This document shows, one piece after another, positions 1-40,703 of a DNA stretch of 40,703 nucleotides; within the stretch, counting starts at the first letter, position 1; each line of letters starts with the position of its first letter. Below the pieces are notes generated by a model. It had not been told where the DNA came from. It worked only from the letters and a program-made list of their open reading frames with translations, and did no database searches. The DNA is taken from contig PMYD01000118.1 of NCBI GenBank assembly GCA_003171335.1, positions 1 through 40,703 on the forward strand, written 5' to 3'. The DNA is from Phycisphaerales bacterium. Lineage in GTDB: Bacteria; Planctomycetota; Phycisphaerae; SM23-33; FEN-1343. Both the position numbers and the translations under genes were made by a program.

Positions 1-11
1 TTTCATGAATA

Positions 12-35
12 GGGTGTGCAGCTCTGCTGTACACC
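12..35. repeat. Dispersed palindrome, copy 1 (GTGTGCAGC family)
   Basis: Ten-base arms GGTGTGCAGC and GCTGTACACC separated by the triplet TCT; one pair is G-T. It is a variant of the element at 68-90 and 38985-39005, in the opposite orientation relative to the flanking AGGG/CCCT. Confidence 0.7.
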
Positions 36-67: not shown

Positions 68-94
68 GGTGTGCAGCAAAGCTGCACACCCTAC
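68..94. repeat. Dispersed palindrome, copy 2, abutting the coaB ribosome binding site
   Basis: A perfect 10-bp inverted repeat (GGTGTGCAGC, loop AAA, GCTGCACACC) is followed by CCTACG. The same core and the same CCTACG flank recur at 38985-39009. The repeat ends directly at the GAGGGA that serves as Shine-Dalgarno for the gene starting at 105, so it forms part of that gene's leader. Confidence 0.75.
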
Positions 95-9322: not shown

Positions 9323-9346
9323 GGCACAGCCGAGGGCGGCTGTGCC
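9323..9346. repeat. Palindrome between the hexosaminidase and heparinase-like genes
   Basis: GGCACAGCCG, loop AGGG, CGGCTGTGCC: ten perfect pairs, flanked by CCACA. It has the same GTGCCAC-type edge as the other palindromes in this window but a four-base loop. It lies in the 95-base gap of a probable operon, where it could influence mRNA stability. Confidence 0.65.
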
Positions 9347-9366
9347 ACACCGACACCACTTGATCG

Positions 9367-13602: not shown

Positions 13603-13696
13603 GGTTTGCTCCTGTCAAATCAGAGGGCGCCGGATACGCGAAGAGCCAGACTACACAGCGTAAGTCCCGATGTCCACAAGTCCGTTATTGAAGTGG

Positions 13697-13808
13697 CATG
13701 GGCGTCTCGCCCATGAGTCCCACGGGCGTCCCGCCCGTGGCGAAAGGGGAAGAAACTGCCGGAAACACGGCCAAGATGGCCGTGCTACTCACGGGCGAGA
13801 CGCCCGTG
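13697..13808. repeat. Composite of four 8-3-8 palindromes
   Basis: Four perfect palindromes with eight-base arms and three-base loops begin at 13697 (CATGGGCG, loop TCT), 13721 (CACGGGCG, loop TCC), 13766 (CACGGCCA, loop AGA) and 13790 (CACGGGCG, loop AGA). Starts are spaced 24, 45 and 24 bases, so they form two pairs, and the loops are complementary between pairs. A second copy with three of the four palindromes is at 32482-32568, sharing the linker GAACTGCCGGAAACACGG. Confidence 0.8.
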
Positions 13809-13839
13809 CCACGGGTTGAACTTCCCGCCCGGCCGGGCC

Positions 13840-23441: not shown

Positions 23442-23661
23442 CAACTGCGGAAATTCCGCAGTTGGATTATTCGGGTTTTCGCAGCCGCGACCGCCAGACC
23501 CGCCAACTGCGGAAATTCCGCAGTCGGATTATTCAGGTTTTGCCGCTTGAACTGCCAAGCCGTCAACTGCGGAAATTCCTCAGTCGGATTATTCAGGGTT
23601 TGTAGCCCCGACTTCCAAGTTGTCAACTGCGGAAATTCCGCAGTCGGATTATTCGGGTTTT
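23442..23661. repeat. Four-unit, 60-62-bp tandem array with a palindromic core
   Basis: Units start at 23442, 23504, 23564 and 23624. Each has a 38-base conserved part: CAACTGCGGAA, A, TTCCGCAGT(T/C)G, then GATTATTC(G/A)GGTTTT (unit 3 differs by a base or two). In unit 1 the first 23 bases are a perfect palindrome with 11-base arms. The 22-24-base parts between units are also recognisably related, so this is a degenerate tandem repeat. It begins 18 bases after the stop of the LacI-type gene. Confidence 0.85.
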
Positions 23662-32425: not shown

Positions 32426-32481
32426 CACTTTCGGCCCGATTCGGCGTGATCAGTTGTCTTAGAACGTGTGTGAAAACGTAG

Positions 32482-32568
32482 CATGGGCGTCTCGCCCATG
32501 GCGACCTGGAGAGAACTGCCGGAAACACGGCCAAGATGGCCGTGCCACTCACGGGCGAGACGCCCGTG
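32482..32568. repeat. Composite of three 8-3-8 palindromes (second copy of the 13697 element)
   Basis: CATGGGCG-TCT-CGCCCATG (32482), CACGGCCA-AGA-TGGCCGTG (32526) and CACGGGCG-AGA-CGCCCGTG (32550). Relative to the copy at 13697 the second palindrome is missing and the linker is shorter, but the block from GAACTGCCGG to the end is almost identical. Confidence 0.8.
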
Positions 32569-32590
32569 CTACGATCGGAAACGGCCGGAA

Positions 32591-32654
32591 GGTGGCACAG
32601 GCTTTTAGCCTGTGTCTTTCCAGCACAGGCCACAGGCTAAAAGCCTGTGCCACC
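32591..32654. repeat. Inverted pair of CACAGGCT palindromes
   Basis: CACAGGCT-TTT-AGCCTGTG (32596-32614) and CACAGGCT-AAA-AGCCTGTG (32631-32649) are each 8-3-8 palindromes, and the 24-base block 32591-32614 is the exact reverse complement of 32631-32654. Sixteen bases separate them. Another copy begins at 40684. Confidence 0.85.
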
Positions 32655-36956: not shown

Positions 36957-37090
36957 AACCCCTCTCCCTTCTACGGGAGAGGGTGGCCCGCAGGGCCGGG
37001 TGAGGGTTCCGCGCAAATAGGTGACATGCTCCTGCGAGACACCCTCGCCGGGCCTGAAGGCCCACCTCTCCCGTCAAGGGAGAGGGGTTA
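36957..37090. repeat. Inverted pair of CCCTCTCCC/GGGAGAGGG elements
   Basis: Copy 1 (36957-37008) has CCCTCTCCC-TTCTAC-GGGAGAGGG, then GGCCC-GCA-GGGCC and GGGTGAGGG. Copy 2 (37041-37090) is the same element in reverse orientation with a few changes. The element is of a type found dispersed in many GC-rich genomes. It separates the HD-GYP gene from the Mla operon and may serve as a transcript boundary. Confidence 0.8.
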
Positions 37091-38796: not shown

Positions 38797-38984
38797 CCCA
38801 TGCCCCCGACCCGGCGTAGTGGAATGTGCGACTGGACAGCTCCACTGCGGGAGATATCGACCGGGCGCGGCGGCGGGTTTAGCACGACAGAGGCGGGTGT
38901 GCAGCATTACCTGCACGCGCATTCAGGAAAGAGACCTATTTGCAAATCGACATGCGCAAGAACCCGACCTCGCTCGAACTTCCC

Positions 38985-39009
38985 GTGTGCAGCGAAGCTG
39001 CACACCCTA
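38985..39009. repeat. Dispersed palindrome, copy 3, carrying the tolC-like stop codon
   Basis: GTGTGCAGC-GAA-GCTGCACAC followed by CCTAC. The core and CCTACG flank match the copy at 68-94. The - strand TAG stop of the outer membrane gene (39009-39007) lies inside this conserved flank. Confidence 0.75.
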
Positions 39010-40665
39010 CGGGGCCGGCGGCGGGTTGTACTTGCGCAGATCGGCCGCGTTGATCTCGACGGCCTTGTCGCCGGGGCTGGCGATGTTGCGGCGCAGCAGC
39101 AGCGAGCCGTTGAGCCGGTAGAGTTCTACCAGCGAATTGGTGTAGGCGACCACGGCCTGCACCTCGGCGATCTGGGCCGAGAGCAGGTCGCGCTGGGCCA
39201 GGCTTACCAAGAGCGAGGTGGACTTGCCCACCTGGAACCGCTCCATCTCGGCGCGCACGGTTTCCTGCTGGAGCCTGCTCGTGGCGGCGGTGGCGGTCAC
39301 CTGCTCCTGCGTGCGGCGGGCCTCGATGAAGGCCGTGCGAACGTCCGACTCGACGAGCTGCGCCATGTTGCTCACGGCCATCATCGCCTGGTCGCGGGCC
39401 AGCACGGAATTGGTGTACTCGGCGCGGGCCAGGCGGTTTAAGGGCGGCAGCGAGAAGGTCGCCCCGGCCAGGAATGTGTAGTTGGGCGACTTGAGATTCG
39501 TGACCGACGCGCCGAACGAGTCGGCGTAGCCCGTGCGGCTGAGATTGGCGAACAGGTCCAACTGCGGCAGCAGGCCGTTCTTGGTCTTGACGATCTGCAA
39601 ATCGCCGCGGTTGACCTGAAGCTTGGCCTCGTTCAGGTCCGGCCGCAGCTTCAGGCCCACCTGCACGTACGGGTCGGGGTCGTTCAGCTCGACGGCCGGC
39701 ACGGCGGGGGTGTCCAGCAGCGTGATCTCGCGGTCGAAGGTCGTGCCCCCCGGGCTGAGCAGCCGCAGCAGCGTGATGCGCGCCTTGTCGGCGGCGCTGC
39801 GGGCGTCGATCAGGGCCTCGTGGCGGCTGGCCACCTCGGCCTCGGCGGCGGCCTGCTCGGTCTGGGCCACGGTGCCCACGCGAATCCGCTCCAGGGTGTC
39901 ATCAAGCTGCTTTTGGGCCAGGCCCAGCGACTGGATGACGATCTCGATCTGCCGCTGGGCCAGTGCGTAGTTCCAATACGCCTCCTCCGTCGAGGCCACC
40001 AGCGACTCGGCAAAGCCGCGAAGCTGGTACTGCGAGTTCAGTACATCCAGCCGGGCCTGGCGCAGCGAGACATAGTTCACATCCGGCCCAAAGCCGCGCA
40101 GCAGCGATTGCGTGGCCGAAAACCCGGCCGTGGTGGCGAACTTGTCCTGCGGGATGCCGGGAAATTCGTTGATCGTCGTCTGGCCCATCAGGGCCAGCGT
40201 CGTGCCGGTAGGCAGAAATTCCGACAGGGCCAGTTGCGGGGTGTAGCTCTGGCTGAACGTCTTGCCCAGCGTGAGATTCTGGGCTGTCGTGCTGAGCCGC
40301 TCGAAGGTGAAGCTGCCGCCGAAATTCGGGTCAAACGCCGCCAGTTGCTGCTCGACCAGCGTGCGTTCCAGCGGCGGGTTGTAACGCTGAACCACAAAGG
40401 CGCGGTTGTTCTCCAGGGCCATCAGCACCGCCTGGCTGAGCGTCACCTGGATCGGCCCGGAGGGCTGCGTGGCCGGCTCGGTGGCGGCGTTCACCTGGCG
40501 CAGCGCCTCGGCGCGCGTGGTTTCCTGGACGAGCGCACGCTGCGGCGCCGGGCCGATGAAGTCCTCATTCGAGCCGGTCTCGACGGGGCTGCACGAGGCC
40601 AGCAGCAAACAGGCGGACCCCAGAAGCAGCCAGGAAAACACATGACTCCTTTGCACGATCCACAT
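39007..40665 (-). CDS. TolC-family outer membrane efflux lipoprotein
   Basis: A 552-residue outer membrane channel subunit for type I secretion or efflux. The signal peptide ends in lipobox LASC (Cys25). Two OEP repeats are visible: one starting near VTLSQAVLMALENN (about 73-86) with long helices ending in VAQTEQAAAEAEVASR, and the other around LKLRPDLNEAKLQVNRGDL through RAEMERFQVGKSTSLLV. The helical segments RLQQETVRAEMERFQVGKST are typical of TolC-like proteins. The start at 40665 has AGAGAGG upstream; a GTG at residue 9, after AAAGGAG, is possible and would still leave the signal peptide intact. Its inner-membrane and periplasmic partners would lie beyond the window. Confidence 0.85.
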   Translation of the reverse strand: MWIVQRSHVFSWLLLGSACLLLASCSPVETGSNEDFIGPAPQRALVQETTRAEALRQVNAATEPATQPSGPIQVTLSQAVLMALENNRAFVVQRYNPPLERTLVEQQLAAFDPNFGGSFTFERLSTTAQNLTLGKTFSQSYTPQLALSEFLPTGTTLALMGQTTINEFPGIPQDKFATTAGFSATQSLLRGFGPDVNYVSLRQARLDVLNSQYQLRGFAESLVASTEEAYWNYALAQRQIEIVIQSLGLAQKQLDDTLERIRVGTVAQTEQAAAEAEVASRHEALIDARSAADKARITLLRLLSPGGTTFDREITLLDTPAVPAVELNDPDPYVQVGLKLRPDLNEAKLQVNRGDLQIVKTKNGLLPQLDLFANLSRTGYADSFGASVTNLKSPNYTFLAGATFSLPPLNRLARAEYTNSVLARDQAMMAVSNMAQLVESDVRTAFIEARRTQEQVTATAATSRLQQETVRAEMERFQVGKSTSLLVSLAQRDLLSAQIAEVQAVVAYTNSLVELYRLNGSLLLRRNIASPGDKAVEINAADLRKYNPPPAP

Positions 40666-40683: not shown

Positions 40684-40703
40684 GGTGGCACAGGCTTTTA
40701 GCC
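40684..40703. repeat. CACAGGCT palindrome, cut by the window end
   Basis: GGTGGCACAGGCTTTTAGCC matches the first 20 bases of the element at 32591-32614; the second arm runs out of the window. Confidence 0.7.

Follow-up and report, generated by a model that had tools for sequence, protein, structure and literature searches.

The palindromes in the window (the whole stretch of 40,703 nt analysed) very probably represent three families of GTRG-tagged REP elements, A, B and C, that are recognised by RAYT transposases; family A also forms the body of a transposon with terminal inverted repeats (TIRs), and the likely RAYT of family B is kept within leuS. All palindromes named in the first-pass annotation were present in the sequence, and all except one were near copies of the three families, with the core CAYGGGCG in A, the arm CACAGGCT in B and the arm GGTGTGCAGC in C. 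The architecture proposed there, exact arms of 8–10 bases around a three-base loop, was recovered at 68–90, 13697–13715, 13720–13740, 13766–13784, 13790–13808, 32482–32500, 32526–32544, 32550–32568, 32596–32614, 32631–32649 and 38985–39005; the copy at 9–35 was also found, with arms that are not exact (one arm mismatch). The reported spacing of 24 bases was correct for the half-units of family A. The elements are listed below.

9..35, + strand: family C REP, degenerate, tag ATAG, left half of an inverted pair; 3 mismatches to GTAGGGTGTGCAGCTTYGCTGCACACC
68..94, - strand: family C REP, exact, right half of the pair with 9..35; GTAG + GGTGTGCAGC ttt GCTGCACACC
9323..9348, - strand: single REP-like element of another type; GTGG CACAGCCG ccct CGGCTGTG, 4-base loop
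13693..13715, + strand: family A module, hairpin H1; GTGG + CATGGGCG tct CGCCCATG
13717..13740, + strand: family A module, hairpin H2, variant tag GTCC; CACGGGCG tcc CGCCCGTG
13741..13765, no strand: family A module, variable spacer, differing among copies in which the hairpins are conserved
13766..13788, - strand: family A module, hairpin H3; GTAG + CACGGCCA tct TGGCCGTG
13790..13812, - strand: family A module, hairpin H4; GTGG + CACGGGCG tct CGCCCGTG, outer tag pairing with the H1 tag
32462..32477, + strand: left TIR of the mini-transposon, GAACGTGTGTGAAAAC with 1 mismatch; this copy has lost its right TIR
32478..32572, no strand: shortened family A module, H2 missing; H1 32478–32500 (+), H3 32526–32548 (-), H4 32550–32572 (-)
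32592..32614, + strand: family B REP, left half of an inverted pair (REPIN); GTGG + CACAGGCT ttt AGCCTGTG
32631..32653, - strand: family B REP, right half of the REPIN begun at 32592
38984..39010, - strand: family C REP, single
40685..40703, + strand: family B REP truncated at the window end, with a second B copy in inverted orientation beyond the scaffold gap

The key shared feature, missed by the earlier reader, is the tag: GTAG or GTGG lay directly 5' of the palindrome in every window element except H2 (GTCC) and 9–35 (ATAG), and the GTRG tags faced outward in each inverted pair, as in a REPIN. To judge from their sequence, these hairpins are REP elements, the kind moved by RAYT (HUH tyrosine) transposases. 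REPs of families B and C occurred singly or as inverted pairs, and those of B also in tandem. The window ends at 40703 in a scaffold gap (NN) within an inverted B pair, and B or C repeats stood at the start or end of many contigs of this genome. Upon inspection of ab initio open reading frames, performed with no gene caller, the window palindromes were located outside the larger frames. A RAYT at another locus (L295) was flanked by repeats similar to the element at 9323..9348. The window also contained four hairpins ACTGCGGAaatTCCGCAGT at 23444–23644, spaced 60–62 bases apart and each followed by YGGATTATTC, with differing intervening sequence; these carried no GTRG tag, gave 8 matches on both strands (0 expected), and one further copy was seen beside a B repeat elsewhere.

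The genome (4.2 Mb) was examined by pattern searches and in sampled stretches; its assembly is a draft (91% complete, 169 contigs), many contigs breaking in these repeats. The genome-wide patterns GTRGCAYGGGCGTCTCGCCCRTG (A), GTGGCACAGGCTTTYAGCCTGTG (B) and GTAGGGTGTGCAGCTTYGCTGCACACC (C) returned 222, 138 and 38 matches, respectively, and 0 each for the reversed-pattern control. Hairpins with arms of at least 8 bases and a three-base loop numbered 228 in 700 kb of sampled sequence, compared with 19.6 ± 4.1 in first-order Markov simulations, an excess that is somewhat inflated because the sample was enriched for A sites; the whole-genome counts are not inflated in this way. At the level of the window, an inverted-repeat search drowned the elements among GC-rich chance palindromes, whereas the genome-wide signal was clear. 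The elements thus combine a tetranucleotide tag at the hairpin foot, a short stem and loop, and a copy number well above chance, the features of GTAG-type REPs. Among 392 genomes of the phylum surveyed, the A pattern was detected in 29, with high numbers in few, and the B pattern was almost confined to the present genome.

Searches for a Y1/RAYT-type transposase, as had been suggested, gave 13 Y1_Tnp matches in this genome, one of them between B REPs. On contig C118 of the assembly, B REPs at 26 and 53 (+) and at 757 (-) surrounded a RAYT gene at 307–753, and an identical B REP adjoined a related RAYT (L269) in a deltaproteobacterial MAG. REPs of A type flanked RAYTs in other genomes, namely L247 (G120, loop cct), L253 (G174, loop tcc), L248 (G319, loop tcc) and L271 (a Planctomycetota MAG), the last with the loop tct of the window copies; the tag was the same, and the hairpin matched exactly in L271 and to within one loop base in L253 and L248. 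An associated RAYT was therefore found in the same genome for B (C118), and only in other genomes for A; in this 91% complete assembly no RAYT adjoined A or C REPs, and none was found beside C repeats. The RAYTs carry the HUH motif, a single tyrosine with the NP motif and the conserved tryptophan (alignment A1; Pfam Y1_Tnp matches), the HUH and tyrosine motifs being invariant in the alignment. Several other Y1 genes were rejected as movers: the IS200-like L001–L007 as movers of A, B or C, as their flanking palindromes, where found, differ (GTAG CCGGGGGC, GTAG CCCAGCAC); the RAYT-like L008 and L010–L013 as movers of A, with no A repeats within 1.5 kb; and L012 also for lack of the HUH motif. 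L001 and L007 are IS200-like Y1 genes with a Y----Q motif, each flanked on both sides by GTAG-tagged palindromes in inverted orientation whose loops have 4 bases (CCGGGGGC, CCCAGCAC); these differ in their tag from class 3, whose foot is CnGA (PMC6006769).

On this basis, each hairpin with its 5' GTAG or GTGG would serve as the end recognised by a single-strand transposase of the HUH type (RAYT), two inverted REP ends would make up the mobile unit (REPIN), and RAYTs presumably cut and move the REPs in this genome. The putative substrate of the C118 RAYT is single-stranded GTGGCACAGGCTTTCAGCCTGTG.

The RAYT on C118 (L123), which lies between B repeats within the leuS frame, is likely the mover of family B. 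On this contig, the B REPs are followed by the RAYT and then by the editing and anticodon-binding domains of LeuRS in one stop-free frame of 881 aa. The B REPs read GTGFQPV in the leuS frame; the loop was TTC in 3/3 copies, and a TTT-loop variant would place a TAG in that frame. A second contig, C144, carries the N-terminal part of LeuRS, which runs into a B REP at the contig end. Because the assembly breaks in the B repeat, the arrangement was observed on two contigs, whose junction we infer. Residence in frame would explain why the B RAYT persists: the REP-flanked unit could hardly be lost without harm to an essential enzyme.

Comparable arrangements were identified elsewhere, with RAYTs in frame in alaS (L256, G120:C30), fabZ (L258, G120:C16) and valS (L248, G319:C24). 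In one scan of genome contigs, a recognisable host domain was in frame with the RAYT in 32 of the 35 long frames tested; the hosts, assigned by Pfam matches and mostly from MAGs, included the aminoacyl-tRNA synthetase genes valS, ileS, leuS, thrS (three) and alaS, in addition to carB (three), purH, priA, recG (two), rarA, gcvP, ispG, pcnB, rdgB (two) and several restriction-modification enzymes, and came from Planctomycetota, Verrucomicrobiota, Bacteroidota, Ignavibacteria, Proteobacteria and others. The valS product of G319 shares 56% identity over 1360 residues, insert included, with that of L270 (a Phycisphaerales MAG), and L271 has a RAYT at the same point of valS; the shared insert suggests that this insertion is old and, in addition, that the class from which the window comes is Phycisphaerae. 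Within the class (61 genomes), 11 of the 15 strongest matches to the RAYT alignment lay in frames of more than 600 aa, against 2 of the 133 weaker ones among the matches listed (Fisher p = 8e-12), a contrast that shows a subfamily habit and not a general RAYT rate, since the alignment was built in part from in-frame RAYTs and strong matches are close to those by construction. A host domain was present in 8 of the 9 top frames tested in the class. It is probable that a RAYT sublineage found in several phyla resides as in-frame, REP-bounded inserts in essential or housekeeping genes, the stop-free hairpins serving as peptide linkers and the transposase as a domain within the host protein that is hard to lose.

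Most copies of family A form a module of ~118 bp consisting of two inverted half-units (e.g. 13693–13812), in the order H1 (GTRG-CATGGGCG), H2 (usually GTCC-CACGGGCG), variable spacer, H3 (CACGGCCA) and H4 (GTRG-CACGGGCG). Folded as a single strand, the module forms an outer stem of 20 bp, tags included (-51 kcal/mol, z -9.6). The outer tags were concordant (GTAG/GTAG or GTGG/GTGG) in 32 of 37 modules. The left tag was shared with the nearest-spacer neighbour in only 21/37, so lineage alone explains the agreement poorly. We do not claim the concordance as proof of guide-target pairing: the 20-bp outer stem permits hairpin-mediated correction, which is equally possible, and the spacers are short.

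About half of the full A modules examined were located inside a mini-transposon of ~160 bp with 16-bp TIRs, GAACGTGTATGAAAAC, which had 47 matches genome-wide (control 0). Identical 3 bases stood outside both ends in 18 of 20 readable TIR pairs (0.3 expected); the duplication was always TNA, mostly within CTNAG, and points to a DDE transposase, not to single-strand HUH transposition. Duplication of TNA is a feature of IS1031-like IS5 elements, whose MITEs are short TIR elements. To our knowledge, RAYT/IS200-type transposition does not yield such target duplications. Family A would hence also make up the interior of a miniature TIR transposon whose insertion duplicates TNA, and part of its spread would be due to a DDE transposase supplied from elsewhere. 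The assembly contained no autonomous TIR element, the longest TIR pair spanning about 280 bp, and no cognate DDE transposase with the same TIRs; the TIRs and the 3-bp TNA duplication are those of an IS5/IS1031-type MITE, and the mini-transposon was not filed as a member of IS5. The TIR pairs leave no room for a gene and do not enclose a tyrosine transposase as in TIRYT or TIRtron elements. Many A modules in this genome lack the TIR, which in the window accompanies only the copy at 32478, on its left side, and it was essentially absent from seven other genomes with A-type repeats (one single match, with mismatch). The arms GAACGTGTATGAAAAC were rejected as an independent repeat, having been seen only around A modules or assembly gaps. 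In two longer TIR elements, L155 (C151:46270–46750) and C155:613–891, the A module contained a further inverted repeat (CATGACAGCGCTAGTTT...), which may represent a nested mini-transposon.

Three other explanations were considered. If the REP-like hairpins of family A had arisen by chance in a purely DDE-type MITE, with a RAYT never involved, its TIRs and TNA duplications and the lack of an A-flanked RAYT in this genome would be accounted for; the A hairpin nevertheless flanks RAYTs elsewhere with the same tag (exactly in L271, also in L253 and L248), and it occurs without the TIR both in other A-rich genomes and in many modules here, which makes this explanation very unlikely. A chimeric assembly at the RAYT–leuS frame, or an intact leuS elsewhere that would leave this one as a broken copy, is equally hard to credit. 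In favour of it, the assembly is a draft with the leuS halves on separate contigs. On C118, however, a single frame joins the RAYT without a break to the C-terminal two thirds of LeuRS; C144 breaks off within a B REP at the corresponding position of LeuRS; the assembly yielded no further LeuRS editing domain; and the same arrangement recurs with other hosts in independent assemblies.

Selection of the palindromes at gene ends as immobile transcription terminators or mRNA-stabilising hairpins would fit their stability and their intergenic position in the window by ORF inspection. Such an origin is extremely unlikely in view of near-identical sequences at tens to hundreds of sites with a constant GTRG tag, inverted pairing of conserved length, siting around RAYT genes and target duplications in the TIR form; the RAYT association and the duplications led us to reject termination as the main role, and the palindromes may act on mRNA secondarily.

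The first-pass annotation had likened the palindromes to REP/BIME elements spread by RAYTs. This reading held for their build, with its GTRG tag, short loop, inverted pairs and high copy number, and was strengthened by RAYTs between inverted REPs of the same family, of B here and of A type in other genomes. It does not fully cover A, since roughly half of the full modules examined sit in the TNA-duplicating TIR element. The remark that such repeats are known mainly as spurious peptides was wrong, as REPs with a GTAG tag and 2–3 base loops were described in 2013: this super-family occurs in Planctomycetes and Verrucomicrobia, with GTRG/GTGG variants (PMC3733652). Such tagged sequences are recognised by RAYT transposases (PMC2817692, PMC6006769), and RAYTs and REPs have been tabulated (PMC2817692). 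REPs, REPINs and RAYTs are already known, as are in-frame REPs within genes. The present families resemble the GTAG-tagged ones (PMC3733652, PMC2817692) in their GTAG/GTGG/GTRG tag, 6–13 bp stem, 2–3 base loop, inverted dimers, clusters and RAYT association, but A differs in being a fixed four-hairpin module. As in REPINs and REPtrons (PMC3116915, PMC6006769), the unit comprises two inverted REPs and the RAYT gene lies between REPs, whereas here the RAYT-bearing unit is in frame within essential genes. TIRtron and TIRYT elements, and TIRs made of a degenerate REP plus a stem-loop (PMC3733652), likewise have REP-like hairpins beside long TIRs in many copies; here, by contrast, no transposase lies between the TIRs, and the element shows a 3-bp duplication. 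With IS5-family (IS1031-like) MITEs, the A element shares the short TIR structure and the TNA duplication in a CTNAG context, but its body consists of REP hairpins, and no transposase was identified. In-frame REPs within genes have been reported for subclass 2.4 tnpA_REP and other genes (PMC6006769), alongside the RPEs of Rickettsia and REPs carried by uvrA/uvrB (PMC3733652). Those cases (PMC6006769, PMC3733652) are alike in that palindromes lie within genes and often keep the reading frame, and differ in that the insert here includes a whole transposase gene; proteins longer than expected were excluded from a 2018 survey of the superfamily, which regarded them as fusions or errors of annotation (PMC6006769). 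A four-hairpin module in a TNA-duplicating TIR element was not found in the literature searched, which left subscription papers mostly outside and is weak evidence, nor was a description of in-frame RAYT-bearing REP units in essential genes, an absence that is again weak evidence.

How RAYTs and REPs persist for long periods despite rare movement is an open question. Their persistence has been read as a sign of host benefit. A direct alternative is provided by the location of RAYTs in frame within genes for aminoacyl-tRNA synthetases and other core functions, from which the transposase could hardly be removed without breaking an essential protein. The REP-in-MITE form would bring two unrelated modes of transposition to bear on one repeat and can confuse repeat-based inference. 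Finally, two related hairpins with 5–6 base loops, CCCTCTCCC...GGGAGAGGG, were observed in the window at 36960–36983 and 37065–37085, ~100 bases apart.
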